From positions 3,100,001-3,164,000 of the forward strand of contig NZ_CP042912.1 in NCBI RefSeq assembly GCF_008087665.1: a stretch of 64,000 nucleotides of DNA, read 5' to 3'. This DNA comes from Mariniblastus fucicola. Lineage in GTDB: Bacteria > Planctomycetota > Planctomycetia > Pirellulales > Pirellulaceae. The notes below the pieces were generated by a model, which made no database searches, was not told the origin of the DNA, and saw nothing but the letters and a program-made list of their open reading frames with translations. A program made the translations under genes and the position numbers. Of this stretch, positions 6,983 to 13,005 are shown in pieces; positions within the stretch are counted from its first letter, which is position 1, and each line of letters opens with the position of its first letter.

Positions 6983-9900
6983 ATGAACTTCCTCAGCCAA
7001 AATCCGACTCGAGAGGAGCTGCTGGATCAGATCCAGCGGTTCTACGATGAAGGCCAATATCTTAAAGCCTGGGCGCTCTCCCGGTCGCTTGGCCCGCTGA
7101 AACACTGGCGCGGCGCTCGCGAAATGGTGCTCGCCGGTCGCCTCGCATTTAACCTCGGTTCACGGCGACTTGGCAACGTCTTGCATCGGTTGGCTCTGCG
7201 GATGCATCCGAACGATCCGATGGTCGTGACGTTCGCGATGCTCACGATGTCGGGAAGGCTCGGCCCGTGGGGATCGTTGCAGAGAATGAAACTGCACGGC
7301 GACTTGCCGCATGCCAAAACTGAAAACCGAGCCGACTGGATGGCGCTCAAGGCGCTGAACTATGCTCAACTGAGAGACTTTCAGAAAGCCGAATACTGGC
7401 AAGCGAAAGCATTTGAACTGGCGCCTGAAAGTGCGTGGATGTACGTCAGCCAGACTGCGATTCTTGAGTGCCAGGATCTGAACGACGAAGCCACCCGTGC
7501 GGCTGAGAAGGCTTACGCGATCAAGCCAACGTACCGTCCGGCAATTCAGTCGCTGGCCAATCGATATATCGAATCCAATCGAGATCAGGACGCGGTGGAC
7601 TTGCTGTATCGGGCTGTCAACCAGATCGAAAGTGGATTGGTGCGATGTCAGTTGGCGTCGTTCTATCGAGAGCTGGAGTTCTACGAACACGCTTTGCAGC
7701 TCTACGATGGCATCGAGAAATACTTTCCACTGCTGAGCGAGGACGCGAAGTACGAACAATGGCTCGCCGGCGTTCATTCAGACCTGAACTACCTCAATGG
7801 CAAGCGTAACAAGGCCATCGAGTGGGCTCAGAAAGTCGACGATGACTTTTATCGCGAATTCGTTGGTCGACTGTCAGATCCGTCCTTCACTGGGCGACGC
7901 GTCCAGCTTCCGGTGAAGTACGTGAAGCAGCATCATGTAACGTGCGCACCGGCAACGCTGTCCGCCATCGCCATGTACTGGCAGAAAGGCACCGACCATC
8001 TCGAAGTCGTGGAAAAAATTTGCTACGACGGAACGCCTTCCGACAGCGAACGACGTTGGGCGGCAAAAAACGGATTCAAAACAGTCGAATTTACGCTGAC
8101 TTGGGAAGCCGCCACGGCGCTCATCGATCGCGGATTGCCTTTTACGTTGACGACGATCGAACCGGGCAATGGTCACCTCCAGCCGATCATCGGATACGAC
8201 AGCTTTCGAAAAACGCTAATCACCCGCGATCCTGGAAACCGGCACGCCAGCGAATTCCTGTACGACAAAATGCAGAAGCGTTATGAGTCGACGGGACCGC
8301 GAGCGATGGCTTTGGTCCCCAATGAGTACGCTCAGCAGATCGACGGAATCACCTTTCCCGATGCGAAAGAGTACGACCTTCTGTTCAATGTCGAGCTCTG
8401 TCTGGAGAAACATCAACGCGATAAAGCCAACGATATCGTGTCGCTGATGGAGCAGCATTTTCCTGACCATCGTTTGACGTTGCGAGCCAGAATCAGCGTT
8501 GCTCGTTACGATTCCGATGTACAGACGATGTTGAGTTCCGTCGATCGAATGCTGTCGCAGTTTCCCGACGACGCGAATTTTCAAATGCAGAAACTCTCCT
8601 GTTTACATCAGCTCGGGCGGCGTGAAGATCGACTGAAGTCGTTGCGTGAGATCCGACACTCCGACCGTTGTCACCCGCTGTTTTGGACGCGATTGGCCGA
8701 AGAACTGGTCGACGACGCACGCGAAAAGAATGAAGTTGACTATCTGTTGAAGCGGGCGACTCGTTTTCGATTTCGCGACGGCTACGGATTCTATTTGCTG
8801 GCTCGGACCTGCAACGATCAAGGCCGCTACGAAGAAGCCATCGAGTTGTTTCGAATCGCGGCTTGTCTTGATGGCATGAGCGAGCACCGGGCGCAAGCGT
8901 ACTTTTCGACGGCGCAGAGCATGAACCGGATGGGCGAGGCACTGTTCCTGCTCGAAGACCGCCTTGATCGGTTCGGTTCCAAATCGTCATCGCCCGCCAT
9001 GACGCTGGCATCGGCTTATGAAGACATGGATCAGACAGAACGAGCGTTCGCGATTCTTGACGACGCTGCGAACTATCATTCGGCTGATGGCGAGTTTCTG
9101 CTGTACTATTCTGATTTCTGTAATCGCTACGGAAGGACCGATCAGGCGGCAGAACTGCTTGCCGCAGCGAAGCCTCACAGCAGTAAAACGCAGTGGCTGC
9201 ATCATGCTGCCCAGCACGCATCACGCAAAGGCGAATCGGAAACGGCACTTTCCTGTTTGCTCGAAGTCGTCGAGGACGATCCGCTAAACACCAGAGCACT
9301 TTCGCATACGCTGAGTTTGATTGCAGATCGGGAGGGCCGGAAGGCAGCGATCAGTCGCATTCGAAAGCAAGTCGAAGCGTTTCCGAACTCCTATTCGTTG
9401 CGCAAGCTGCTGATTGAATGGTTGGCGTCAGAAAAAAGCGAAGTTCGGGAACTGGAACTTAACAGATTTCTGCAACTACACCCAAATGATGCGTGGGCCT
9501 TGCGGGAATTGGCGTCGGTCCTCGCTGGCATGAAGCGGTTTGACGATGCCTTGAAAGCCATCAAGCAGGCTTGTGCCGTCGATCCGAACTCTCCCGCGAC
9601 TCATGGATTTCGTGGCGAAGTCTACCAGAAACAGAATCGACTTGACGACGCGATTGAGTCTTACCGCCAGGCTCTGTCCATCACGATCGACTATCAGTAC
9701 GCCATTCACGAACTGATAAACTGCTGCAGCACGCGAGAACAGCGAAAGCAACAACTTCGATTCATTCTCGCGGAACTGAATCGGCAAACCAGCCGGGGAG
9801 ACGGTTTACTGCAATATCGGAAGCACGCGAAACAGGTGCTTGAGCCCGAAGCGTTGCTGCAGTCTTTGCTGGAATTCCTCGGCAAGCGTGAAGATCTGTG

Positions 9901-11986
9901 GCAATCCTGGGTGGCACTTTCCCGCCAGCTTAGCGACATGCAGCGTCACGAAGAAGCCATTTCGATCGCGACGAAGGTGTCTGAAAAGTTCCCCTTGCTG
10001 CCACGGGTCTGGTTAGAGCTTGCGGCAACTTATTCGGCGTGTGGCAAATGGGATCAGCAAATTGAGTCGCTAAAGAAAGCGAATTCGATCAATTGTCGCT
10101 GGGGCGAAGTTATTCGAACTCTTTCCGAAGCCTACGACAAGAAAGGCGAACTTGAACTCGCGAAACTGGAGATCGCGAAAGCCATTAAGCTCGATCCGCG
10201 AAACGCGATTAACTTCGGATACCTTGCGGATCTCACATGGCGTCACGGGGACAAAGAGCAGGCTCTGGAAAAAATCGCACATGCCGTTCGGCTTGATCCG
10301 GACTACGAGTTCGCCTGGTCGTCGCTGCGATCATGGTGTGAACAGTTGGGAAAGCCGGACTTTGACGTGACGCTCGCCAAAGAACTCTGCCGCGATCGGC
10401 CGGAGGAATCGCGTTCGTGGCTAAAGCTGGCGTATTGCCTGGACCAACCGCATCAGGTGGAGGATGCGATCGAAGCACTCGACAAAGCCATCGAGATCGA
10501 TCCTTTACTGGTGGCAGCCTACAGCCAGAAAGCTTCCTTGTACTGCGTTCGCGGGCGATTTGACGAGGCAAGGGGCGTTCTCCAGACCGATGCGTTTGGT
10601 GAAAATTATCCGGTCGAGCTTTCCGTCCGCCGAGCGGTCATCTCGGCTGAAGAAGGCCGACAGACGTCCGCTCTGCACGAAGTTCTGGACGTTGTCGATC
10701 GGGATCCGGATTACTTCAAAGCCTGGCATTGCATCGCAGACTGGGCATCCGATTTGGATGAGTCGGAGCTTTACACGCGGGCCGCCGAGAACATGACGCG
10801 TTTGGAACCTCAGTACTACGTCGCATGGGGCTATCTGGCGGAAGCGTGTTTGCGAAACGGACGACGCGACGATGCGAAAACTCATTTGCAACAAGCGTTG
10901 CAACTGGCACCTGACTACACGTACGCGGCCGGACAGTTGCTGCAGATGCAGATGGAAGATGGTGAGTTTGCTGCTGCGAGGAAAGTCGTGGCAACGGTCA
11001 CGCCGCACGTTTCGGCAGAAGTCAGGTTGTCGAAGTTGATTCAGATTGAATCCCGCTGCGGTGACCAATATGCTGCGTTTCGGTACTTTAAGGAGTTAGC
11101 CGCACTGGAGACCGAAAATATCGAGAGTCTGTCTGAATCCGTGCCTTTCCTGCAGAAGGCGGGCTGGAACAAGGAGGCGATGGACTTGTTGAGCGAAATC
11201 GTTCAGTCGCCGGTTGCGATGCCCGCGGTCGGCGATGCTTTCGCGTTTCATGCTGCGAAAATGGAGCGTTGGATTTCGATCGAAACGACGCTGGATAAAA
11301 TCAGGAGCCAGCGAAAGCTTTGGGATGTCACCGCCTGCCGTTTTCTGCAGGAAGCCCAGGACGCCGGAGAGAGTGATCGTTTCTTCAGTTTCGTCGCATC
11401 CGAACGTGAGTTCATCCGAGCCTCGCTTGACGGTTGGCAGAATCTTGGATGGCTGTATGTTCGCGTCAATCTTTACGAAGAGTGTATTCGTTGGATGTTC
11501 GATTGGGGGATCCGTCCAAGGGCCGAATCGTGGAGCCTGCTGAATCTGGCAACTGCTTTCTTTTGCACGCGCAAGGATCACAAAGCTGCTGAAATCTGTG
11601 AGTTTGCTTTGGAACGCAAAGAGTGCCCTGTTGCGATCGCAGCCAACTTGCAAGTCATGTTGGGTTGCTTCCGCTTGGTCTATGGAGACCTGAATTCAGC
11701 ATTCGAATTGATGTCAACGATTGACCCGGATCGCTTGCCCGGTTTCTATCAAGTTGTGTTCTACCAGACGATGGCCGCGCTTGGCGCAAACCGGACAGAG
11801 AATTCGTATTCCGCGATCAAGAAAGAGATGGAAGCCTTGATTGACGAGCTTGACGCGTCTTTCGAAAGCGACGTGCCGGTTCTGATGCGAAACCATCATT
11901 TGATTCTGTGGAGCGTCGCGCGACGGGAAGGCAAATCAATCCGTGCGGCACTGTTGCAACGAAAAGCTTACGCGGAGATGGTGTAG
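6983..11986 (+). CDS. Giant TPR protein with embedded C39-like cysteine peptidase domain
   Basis: 1667 residues, no signal peptide, so probably cytoplasmic. Nearly the whole chain is tetratricopeptide-like helical repeats, for example RFDDALKAIKQACAVDPNSP. Between about residues 305 and 430 a papain-fold, C39-type domain interrupts the repeats: Cys321 in HHVTCAPATLSA, His398 in GNGHLQPIIGYD and Asp416 in TRDPGNRH form the expected Cys-His-Asp set. C39 domains cleave double-glycine leader peptides or, when degenerate, only bind peptides. The start at ATG 6983 follows a purine-rich AGGGCGGA. A TPR scaffold more than 1200 residues long behind the peptidase suggests that it recruits many partners or one long substrate. 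No ABC transporter or small leader-peptide gene lies next to it. Fold call is fairly firm, activity unknown. Confidence 0.8.
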   Translation: MNFLSQNPTREELLDQIQRFYDEGQYLKAWALSRSLGPLKHWRGAREMVLAGRLAFNLGSRRLGNVLHRLALRMHPNDPMVVTFAMLTMSGRLGPWGSLQRMKLHGDLPHAKTENRADWMALKALNYAQLRDFQKAEYWQAKAFELAPESAWMYVSQTAILECQDLNDEATRAAEKAYAIKPTYRPAIQSLANRYIESNRDQDAVDLLYRAVNQIESGLVRCQLASFYRELEFYEHALQLYDGIEKYFPLLSEDAKYEQWLAGVHSDLNYLNGKRNKAIEWAQKVDDDFYREFVGRLSDPSFTGRRVQLPVKYVKQHHVTCAPATLSAIAMYWQKGTDHLEVVEKICYDGTPSDSERRWAAKNGFKTVEFTLTWEAATALIDRGLPFTLTTIEPGNGHLQPIIGYDSFRKTLITRDPGNRHASEFLYDKMQKRYESTGPRAMALVPNEYAQQIDGITFPDAKEYDLLFNVELCLEKHQRDKANDIVSLMEQHFPDHRLTLRARISVARYDSDVQTMLSSVDRMLSQFPDDANFQMQKLSCLHQLGRREDRLKSLREIRHSDRCHPLFWTRLAEELVDDAREKNEVDYLLKRATRFRFRDGYGFYLLARTCNDQGRYEEAIELFRIAACLDGMSEHRAQAYFSTAQSMNRMGEALFLLEDRLDRFGSKSSSPAMTLASAYEDMDQTERAFAILDDAANYHSADGEFLLYYSDFCNRYGRTDQAAELLAAAKPHSSKTQWLHHAAQHASRKGESETALSCLLEVVEDDPLNTRALSHTLSLIADREGRKAAISRIRKQVEAFPNSYSLRKLLIEWLASEKSEVRELELNRFLQLHPNDAWALRELASVLAGMKRFDDALKAIKQACAVDPNSPATHGFRGEVYQKQNRLDDAIESYRQALSITIDYQYAIHELINCCSTREQRKQQLRFILAELNRQTSRGDGLLQYRKHAKQVLEPEALLQSLLEFLGKREDLWQSWVALSRQLSDMQRHEEAISIATKVSEKFPLLPRVWLELAATYSACGKWDQQIESLKKANSINCRWGEVIRTLSEAYDKKGELELAKLEIAKAIKLDPRNAINFGYLADLTWRHGDKEQALEKIAHAVRLDPDYEFAWSSLRSWCEQLGKPDFDVTLAKELCRDRPEESRSWLKLAYCLDQPHQVEDAIEALDKAIEIDPLLVAAYSQKASLYCVRGRFDEARGVLQTDAFGENYPVELSVRRAVISAEEGRQTSALHEVLDVVDRDPDYFKAWHCIADWASDLDESELYTRAAENMTRLEPQYYVAWGYLAEACLRNGRRDDAKTHLQQALQLAPDYTYAAGQLLQMQMEDGEFAAARKVVATVTPHVSAEVRLSKLIQIESRCGDQYAAFRYFKELAALETENIESLSESVPFLQKAGWNKEAMDLLSEIVQSPVAMPAVGDAFAFHAAKMERWISIETTLDKIRSQRKLWDVTACRFLQEAQDAGESDRFFSFVASEREFIRASLDGWQNLGWLYVRVNLYEECIRWMFDWGIRPRAESWSLLNLATAFFCTRKDHKAAEICEFALERKECPVAIAANLQVMLGCFRLVYGDLNSAFELMSTIDPDRLPGFYQVVFYQTMAALGANRTENSYSAIKKEMEALIDELDASFESDVPVLMRNHHLILWSVARREGKSIRAALLQRKAYAEMV

Positions 11987-12018: not shown

Positions 12019-12052
12019 AAAAAACCCGTTGCTCGAATGAACGAACAACGGG
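12019..12052 (-). terminator. Strong intrinsic terminator (minus strand)
   Basis: CCCGTTG (12025-12031) pairs with CAACGGG (12046-12052); the stem continues after one mismatch with TCG/CGA around an AATGAA loop. On the minus strand the hairpin is followed directly by six T (12019-12024), so it ends leftward transcripts: the mini-ORF RNA just upstream and possibly frr. On the plus strand it is followed only by CTGTTT and may weakly terminate the TPR gene too. Confidence 0.75.
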
Positions 12053-12190
12053 CTGTTTAAGCTGAACTTATCGTCACAAGGGATGATGAGTTCTGCGATG
12101 GGTGGCCGTCGGCTACCCGCCGATAGCGTCAAGCGGTACCACCCACTCGGCTAATACAGAAACTACACACTTAGTCACCTCCTTTTCTCG
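12025..12190 (-). ncRNA. Candidate structured small RNA with a 13-codon ORF
   Basis: On the minus strand the block runs from about 12190 to the terminator at 12025 and looks like a self-contained short transcription unit. It contains a perfect 16S anti-SD complement, a GTG-started 13-codon ORF and a hairpin just after it (GGGTAGCC / GGCCACCC around a GAC loop, one mismatch, about 12101-12119). The GCCGA in the ORF can pair with TCGGC at about 12118-12122, and the in-ORF TGGGTGG can instead pair with CCACCCA. These alternatives resemble attenuator logic, but only a terminator and the convergent TPR gene lie downstream. I did not identify a promoter and cannot say whether the family is already catalogued. 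Confidence 0.45.
12129..12170 (-). CDS. 13-residue mini-ORF with a perfect Shine-Dalgarno
   Basis: GTG at 12170 to TGA at 12129-12131 would encode MCSFCISRVGGTA. The upstream sequence AAAGGAGGTGA is an eleven-base exact complement of the conserved 3' tail of bacterial 16S rRNA, and GGAGG sits 7 bases from the GTG, an ideal distance. So strong a site before so short a frame is hard to explain by chance. The peptide has a CxxC pair and could be a functional micropeptide or a leader peptide whose translation controls the hairpins around it. No homologue is recognised by me. Confidence 0.4.
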   Translation of the reverse strand: MCSFCISRVGGTA

Positions 12191-12438
12191 AAATCATCCC
12201 GCTTGAAACCTATGCCGTAAGATTGGTTTCTCGCAGGTCGTGAGTCCATCGCACTGCGTCGTACGATCCAACATCTGCAGTATGATCAAGCCAATCAAAA
12301 GCTGCAATATGGCTTCGTATACCCGTAATTCGGGTGGCCGACAAAGCACAACAGCCGCAATTTTCCTGATCGCAGACATCTGGAGGAGACGTCGCGTGAA
12401 GAAAGGTTCACTCTCTGTTTCCGATTGATATGGCGATC

Positions 12439-13005
12439 CTATTCGCCGTCATCCATGACTTCTGTCTCGCGAGATTTGGCCATTTCAGTCGCCTGGTCTT
12501 CGTATTTCTTGGTCAAATCCTGAATGTCGCTCTTCACCGAATCGCGATCATCTTCAGTCATCAACTTGTCTTTTTGTTCCTGATCAGCAGCCTTGTTTCC
12601 GTCGCGGCGAACATTGCGGATCGAGATCTTCGCATCTTCCGTCAGTTCCCTGATCCGACCGACCATTTTTTTGCGGACGTCTGTCGAAAGAGCAGGAATG
12701 TTGATGCGGACAACCCGTCCGTCGCTTTGCGGATTGAAGCCGAGATCGCTGCCAACGATTGCTTTTTCAATTTCCTTGATGATCGACGTGTCGTAGGGGC
12801 GGATCACGATCTGGGAAGGCTCTGGAGCACCGACTTGAGCGATCTGTTTGAGTGGTGTTGGAGATCCATAAACATCGACTCGGACCGAATCCACCAATCC
12901 TGGATTGGCGCGGCCGGTACGGATGCCACCAAGATTCTTCTTGAGAATCTCGATTGCTTTTCCCATTCGCTCTTCGGCGTCCGTCAAAATTTCATTGGCT
13001 GGCAT
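12439..13005 (-). CDS. frr: Ribosome recycling factor
   Basis: 188 residues, the usual RRF length. Family hallmarks are the N-terminal helix MGKAIEILKKNLGGIRTGRANPGL-like segment, the hinge region (GSPTPLKQIAQVGAPEP), and the C-terminal helices with NVRRDGNKAADQEQKDK. RRF and EF-G split post-termination ribosomes in the cytoplasm. GAGG lies 8 bases before the ATG at 13005. Usual neighbours (pyrH, tsf) are not present here. The C-terminus (VMDDGE) extends slightly beyond most RRFs. Confidence 0.97.
   Translation of the reverse strand: MPANEILTDAEERMGKAIEILKKNLGGIRTGRANPGLVDSVRVDVYGSPTPLKQIAQVGAPEPSQIVIRPYDTSIIKEIEKAIVGSDLGFNPQSDGRVVRINIPALSTDVRKKMVGRIRELTEDAKISIRNVRRDGNKAADQEQKDKLMTEDDRDSVKSDIQDLTKKYEDQATEMAKSRETEVMDDGE

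Follow-up and report, generated by a model that had tools for sequence, protein, structure and literature searches.

Here, we describe a small, conserved RNA element of Planctomycetota that we regard, with slightly better than even confidence, as a stand-alone regulatory RNA gated by the ribosome. The element was found in a window of 64,000 nucleotides from Mariniblastus fucicola (contig NZ_CP042912.1, positions 3,100,001 to 3,164,000), where a long complement to the 3′ tail of 16S rRNA precedes a very short reading frame that is itself part of a pseudoknotted fold. The boundaries of the gene (in a statistical sense), its fold, pseudoknot, Shine-Dalgarno (SD) sequence, frame and stop position are derived from comparison of copies, and a ribosome-gated RNA appears to be the simplest joint account of the SD, the start, the stop position, the pairing and the freer residues. 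The features of the locus, in window coordinates, are as follows.

12307-12023, minus strand: the candidate stand-alone gene, from the promoter-like boxes through the terminator (sequence reading and covariance models)
12279..12307, minus strand: promoter-like boxes TTGCAG (12307-12302) and CATACT (12284-12279), separated by 17 nt (read from the sequence)
12089..12269, minus strand: conserved structured RNA core (covariance-model match)
12248..12267, minus strand: hairpin H1 at the predicted 5′ end, stem ATCGTA/TGCGAT, loop ACGC (covariation)
12198..12237, minus strand: hairpin H2 (CCTGC/GCGGG and GAAACC/GGTTTC), loop AATCTTACGGCATA (covariation)
12214..12217, minus strand: pseudoknot strand CGGC in the H2 loop (swapped-partner test)
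12175..12185, minus strand: Shine-Dalgarno sequence AAAGGAGGTGA, 11 bases, exact complement of the 16S rRNA tail (genome pattern search)
12129..12170, minus strand: 13-codon micro-ORF GTG...TGA, MCSFCISRVGGTA, with GTG at 12170 and the stop at 12131-12129 (translation)
12148..12151, minus strand: pseudoknot strand GCCG in the ORF, codons 7-8 (swapped-partner test)
12100..12144, minus strand: hairpin H3 (GGGTGG/CCACCC, CCG/CGG and an apical hairpin, loop TCGGCGGG), the 5′ arm of which is the end of the ORF (covariation)
12023..12054, minus strand: intrinsic terminator-like site, 13-pair stem and T run (terminator scan)
12439-13005, minus strand: upstream gene for ribosome recycling factor (frr), on the same strand as the RNA (Pfam RRF, 2.2e-57)
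6983-11986, plus strand: downstream gene for a TPR/C39-like protein, convergent with the RNA (ORF and domain search)

Part of this locus had been outlined in a preliminary description that placed the element at 12025..12190. The element is larger: it starts at about 12269, directly downstream of the promoter-like TTGCAG-17-CATACT, and includes H1, H2 and the pseudoknot in addition to what was noted there. The 11-base anti-SD complement reported on the minus strand is confirmed as AAAGGAGGTGA at 12185-12175, which is exactly complementary to the genome's own 16S tail, and the GTG-started frame of 13 codons is equally real. The reported spacing of seven bases between the two is right when counted from AGGAGG but not for the 11-base block, which ends 4 bases before the GTG. 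The convergent product, a protein of 1667 residues, contains many TPR repeats as well as an internal Peptidase_C39_2 domain (residues 309-417).

The scheme that we propose is the following. The RNA would be transcribed from its own promoter and would end at its own terminator. H1 and H2 would come first, followed by an SD that would pair with much or all of the single-stranded 16S tail, and the frame of 10-18 codons would then enter the fold, its middle pairing with the H2 loop and its end serving as the 5′ arm of H3. A loaded ribosome would have to open the pseudoknot and H3 and then to terminate inside H3, whereas a ribosome-free RNA could keep the closed fold; the pseudoknot and H3 are built in part from the frame itself, so that translation by a ribosome and the closed fold should be mutually exclusive. 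In this way, the RNA might report that a ribosome has loaded or been released, and its open and closed forms could differ in lifetime or in binding in trans via the conserved loops (the H2 loop and the H3 loop C-GRCG-G). Transcription and translation, like the switch and its output, are what we infer from this arrangement. If the scheme is true, regulation of this RNA would come from its being translated and not from the peptide, in a case that lends itself to direct testing.

The breadth of conservation was assessed at increasing evolutionary distance. A first blastn search, covering 60 relatives, detected the SD and frame in same-genus genomes, with some of the matches attributable to chance (L006 and L010 by sight, and probably most of those with E > 0.02). 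Three models were used for the wider searches, namely R1, built from ten blastn-found sequences, R2, from 73 family copies, and R3, from 48 class and phylum copies. R1 matched 24 of 28 genomes in the genus and 161 of 199 in the family, the latter representing 50 of 68 genera; R2 matched 151 of 246 genomes in the order, 205 of 248 in the class (184 of the 222 good genomes) and 52 of 294 in a phylum sample. With R3, a phylum sample yielded 127 of 392 genomes, 91 of them outside the class, at E up to 0.01, a threshold at which about 4 of the 392 would be expected by chance. The genus, family, order, class and phylum samples overlap, and weak matches are undercounted, since Infernal ran with its stricter filters whenever more than 40 genomes were searched. 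There is nearly always one copy per genome: when 763,659 bases of sequence surrounding the copies were searched with R2 at E up to 0.001, the 92 sources returned exactly 92 matches, and the additional weak matches seen in a few genomes (e.g., G201, G042 and G853) are probably due to chance. Scanning the contigs of named genomes with a DNA pattern returned 59 records, and all titles but three, which read 'bacterium' only, name Planctomycetota or taxa that we place in this phylum. In well-assembled G052 (order) and G090 (family), neither R2 nor R3 found a match, as might result either from loss of the RNA or from divergence past the reach of the models; R1 and R2 found none in well-assembled G073 and G071 (family). 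A chance origin of the element is ruled out by this conservation.

Copies were compared in detail in two sets. Alignment A3, covering the class, holds 92 copies, of which 53 are from the 73 family copies and 39 from outside the family, all 92 of them matched; the 20 family copies left out were near-duplicate or redundant. The frame survey (n=112) adds to the 92 copies of the class (family included) 20 of the 32 R2 matches outside it, and 15 of these 20 also belong to a further alignment, A4, of 48 copies.

The fold is apparent already in the window, where the block 12190-12015 folds better than 200 of 200 shuffles (z -3.36), with MFE and centroid structures that differ. In the 92 copies, all 34 structure pairs show changes on both sides, and 89.4% of the cells are paired. 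The covariation score is 0.557, compared with 0.221 +/- 0.007 in shuffles and at most 0.089 with slid partners, figures that are tilted towards the structure, given that the alignment was fitted to it. All 7 pairs of H1 changed on both sides (97.8% of cells paired, 92 copies), and compensatory changes in 7/7 of them are seen in an unfitted ten-sequence MAFFT alignment as well. In H2, which comprises helices 2 and 3 of the covariation test, all 9 pairs changed on both sides, with 88.8% and 75.8% of cells paired, respectively; H3 corresponds to helices 5-9. In several phylum members (L187, L190, L197 and L200), the H1 loop has the sequence C-GACG-G, which is also that of the H3 apical loop in several of them and in many other copies; the two loops perhaps share a binding partner.

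The pseudoknot joins the H2 loop to the middle of the ORF. An early RNAalifold pairing of GGC with GCC was invariant in 10 sequences and therefore uninformative, and the wider set was used for the pseudoknot test: the best-helix score is 13.52, compared with 12.18 +/- 0.22 when partners are swapped among copies (100 swaps, maximum 12.75; the swaps ignore relatedness). The pairings themselves vary, including CUGGC/GCCAG, CGGC/GCCG and UUGGC/GCCAA, and no pseudoknot helix was found in a few copies, e.g., L077 and L142. A further hairpin after H3 is supported by the same kind of control (16.9 vs 14.7 +/- 0.2), the window's own copy excepted. The preliminary description had spoken of mutually exclusive hairpins; the hairpins are conserved, but a switch between alternative stems is not borne out, the extra stem between the ORF and the tail scoring near its swapped control (10.93 vs 10.59 +/- 0.18). 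A lower H3 stem (CGAG of the ORF with CTCG of the tail), which would be in competition with that further hairpin, was dropped, its pairing having no support beyond conservation.

The 16S rRNA gene of this genome (RF00177 match, 1471 bits) ends GGCTGGATCACCTCCTTTCT, and the SD 11-mer occurs exactly twice in the 6.57-Mb genome, once in the element and once, read on the opposite strand, in the 3′ tail of the 16S rRNA gene; within the window, the 10-base core AAGGAGGTGA has one occurrence. Because about 3 such 11-mers are expected by chance in the genome, counting both strands (a reversed control pattern has 1 occurrence), the significance of the SD lies in its conservation and not in genome uniqueness. 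An SD-like complement is present in 112/112 copies examined; since the SD and frame are among the columns of the models that found all of these copies, any without them would escape. The longest contiguous match to the 16S-tail complement has a median of 12 nt and a range of 7-18 nt across the 112 copies, compared with a mean of 4.1 for random 28-mers. Planctomycetes are named in PMC5397173 among the phyla with species in which SD genes make up a small fraction, yet this one RNA retains a complement to much of the 16S tail or to the whole of it. Behind H3, for instance in L162 and L145, the sequence of the 16S tail itself, GGATCACC, recurs, often as part of a small hairpin GGATC..GATCC; GGATCACC or shorter matches occur in 34 of 92 copies. 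This segment could be the RNA's own anti-SD, pairing with its own SD.

Such an extended complement invites a reading of the element as a ribosome decoy or trap, one of the two main rivals to a ribosome-gated switch: the SD-16S duplex, together with the downstream pseudoknot, would hold a 30S subunit or 70S ribosome at the start codon, titrating or parking ribosomes, and completion of the frame would be incidental. Pseudoknot entrapment is a parallel for such a trap. The complement does exceed what initiation needs, and the spacing from the start codon to the H3 arm downstream is 27 nt in 55 of the 83 copies with a GGTGG arm, a distance at which the fold would begin near the ribosome entry site. 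A trap, however, has no need of a stop codon, and yet a frame of 10-18 codons is kept in every one of the 112 copies. On balance, we consider a trap rather unlikely.

In all 112 copies, a start codon behind the SD (GTG in 78, TTG in 20 and ATG in 14) is followed by a stop after 10-18 codons, in 60 of them after 13 codons, and the count stays at 112/112 without any minimum-length condition on the choice of start. Shuffling of the sequence downstream of the SD yields such a frame in 6.7% of cases, or 18.8% if the start codon is kept, and the +1 and +2 frames of the actual copies end within 10-18 codons in only 10/112 and 7/112, respectively. Frame length differs between copies by whole codons. 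The GGTGG arm of H3 lies inside the frame in 83 of the 112 copies, and in 83/83 of these the stop falls 11-15 nt past the start of the arm; the arm is read in frames 0, 1 and 2 in 71, 11 and 1 of the 83 copies, respectively, the frames differing between clades.

Alternatively, the peptide of 10-18 residues could be the product, with the fold regulating its translation. Retention of the frame with length changes in whole codons fits such a micropeptide gene, as does the fact that a Cys at position 5 and the string Ser-Gln-Arg-Gly-Gly are common among the 13-codon forms. However, the codons for Ser-Gln-Arg-Gly-Gly fall on the pseudoknot and H3 strands, the reading frame of the C-terminal part varies from clade to clade, and phylum members have little peptide sequence in common. 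Codon-level comparison was made on 57 distinct ORFs among the 60 with 13 codons, using 152 close pairs, which are non-independent and in which RNA constraint may mask peptide selection. In codons 2-8, 51 of 273 single changes are synonymous (0.187, against a random expectation of 0.212), which speaks against the peptide. Codons 9-13, which also form the H3 stem, show a synonymous excess (77/171, 0.45 vs 0.341 expected) that counts in its favour; we ascribe the excess to the stem fixing the Gly-Gly letters, although peptide selection is possible. For codons 2-13 together, the figures are 128/444 (0.288) and 0.267. A micropeptide gene thus seems to us unlikely. What appears to be kept, as judged from these alignments, is the act and extent of translation, with amino acids outside the stem not detectably kept. 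The preliminary description had left the choice between a micropeptide gene and a translated regulatory RNA; the comparison supports the latter and disfavours the former, on account of codons 2-8 and of the shifting frame of the arm. Conservation among planctomycetes, which it proposed to check, extends for the SD, frame and hairpins across the class and into the phylum, but the peptide is not clearly conserved.

Several observations point to an autonomous gene. Promoter-like boxes at the right distance (at least 9/12) precede 40% of the 112 copies, compared with 3.8% of letter shuffles; in the window itself, a generic promoter scan reported no promoter at 12279..12307. Terminator-like sites lie behind the element in 86 of 112 copies, compared with 6 of 111 control stretches, which bears out the terminator of the preliminary description; because the scanned region of the window holds 2 such sites where 1.9 are expected, the significance of the one at 12054-12023 comes from conservation. 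This enrichment of promoters and terminators, together with the conserved unpaired loops, would also suit a conventional trans-acting antisense small RNA, in which the loops pair with mRNAs and the frame modulates turnover. We hold this to be very unlikely, for it leaves unexplained both the long 16S-tail complement and a frame that ends inside H3 in 112/112 copies.

The surroundings of the element are not conserved in the 73 loci compared (72 longer than 6 kb, and the window). When frames were picked by length, the largest shared-neighbour cluster covered 4 of the 73 loci; when the comparison took in every frame within 3.5 kb that reached 80 residues, none was common to more than 4 other loci, and frr was common to 0 of the 72 others. 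The earlier remark that nothing downstream needs regulation, the next gene being the convergent TPR gene, is accordingly upheld by the lack of a conserved downstream gene. Hence, the idea that the element acts in cis on a downstream gene, as a leader or attenuator, which is suggested by a leader-like anatomy of SD, short frame, hairpins and terminator, has a negligible chance of being correct and is rejected, given that the gene downstream in the window is convergent and that no neighbouring frame occurs in more than 5 of the 73 loci. The element does resemble transcription attenuator leaders in that translation of a short frame would rearrange hairpins beside a terminator, but differs from them in having no conserved downstream gene.

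Among known RNAs, no match at Rfam (release 15) gathering scores was found anywhere in the window, RF00023 included, and ARAGORN reported no tRNA or tmRNA there. At relaxed thresholds, no family rose above its cut-off in 20 loci. The element is a single-copy RNA, present in 205 of the 248 class genomes sampled, that lies outside the cut-off of every family in that release (the window, and 20 loci at relaxed thresholds). It is reminiscent of tmRNA in being an RNA with an internal short frame, but tmRNA is ruled out: a canonical tmRNA is encoded elsewhere in 8/8 genomes, and RF00023 has no match on the element. Likewise ruled out is 6S RNA, with RF00013 matches in 3 of 8 genomes (2 over the cut-off), none of them at the element. 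The sequence GGGTGGTACCGC, which we take to resemble the T-box core, is not kept in relatives, and a T-box leader can be dismissed, with no Rfam match in the window and a convergent TPR gene next to the RNA.

Dual-function small RNAs, such as Spot 42/SpfP, SgrS/SgrT and rnTrpL, encode a peptide that has its own function. Of these, rnTrpL and Spot 42 are named in PMC10117765. Like them, the element combines a small RNA with a short reading frame that has start signals of its own (here, in 112/112 copies); in contrast to them, any selection on its peptide is unclear, and its frame is part of a pseudoknotted fold. Our search of the literature found no description of such an RNA, with one possible exception in a table row: the candidate Rhodopirellula-1 motif of Proteobacteria and Planctomycetes, for which the row gives no Rfam accession (PMC2864571, Weinberg et al. 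2010). The motif is listed there as probably cis-regulatory and ambiguous as an RNA, and the table row is the basis of the comparison.

The nearest Rfam family is CC2171 (RF01867) of Caulobacter and other Alphaproteobacteria. Its best score on the element is 37.2 bits, in L192 (gathering cut-off 75), with weaker scores in other loci. In genome-wide searches of 14 genomes, none had a match at or above 75 bits; 5 of the 11 hits below the cut-off fall on the element, in 5 of the 14 genomes (G731, G414, G603, G598 and G815), the other 6 lie off it, and hits below the cut-off also occur in 4 unrelated control genomes among the 14. Conversely, R3 scores 13-20.5 bits on 5 CC2171 copies from alphaproteobacterial plasmids (L277-L281, 5 of 6 hits fetched), and the 3 alignments inspected are confident mainly at the SD. 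Indeed, the common part is essentially the SD, and the likeness is one of layout, with an GAAAGGAGGUGAUCCAGUG-type SD complementary to the 16S tail, a short frame running into RNA structure and a terminator; the frames, however, are of 24-26 codons and begin MSHC in 5/5 plasmid copies, compared with 10-18 codons here. We read the two RNAs as built to the same plan. CC2171 is listed in Rfam as an sRNA gene and may be a small mRNA or translated RNA.

More tentatively, and at somewhat less than even confidence, we suggest that the element could represent a new class of RNA across a phylum that otherwise makes little use of the SD, with the translating ribosome as its ligand: a pseudoknotted RNA that would sense loading or termination through the passage of the ribosome along its core, with CC2171 as an independent or very distant version. 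If so, CC2171-like RNAs would be worth re-examining as a second case. In the plasmid copies (positions 1501-1610 of L277-L281), the MSHC frame lies behind a long 16S-tail complement.
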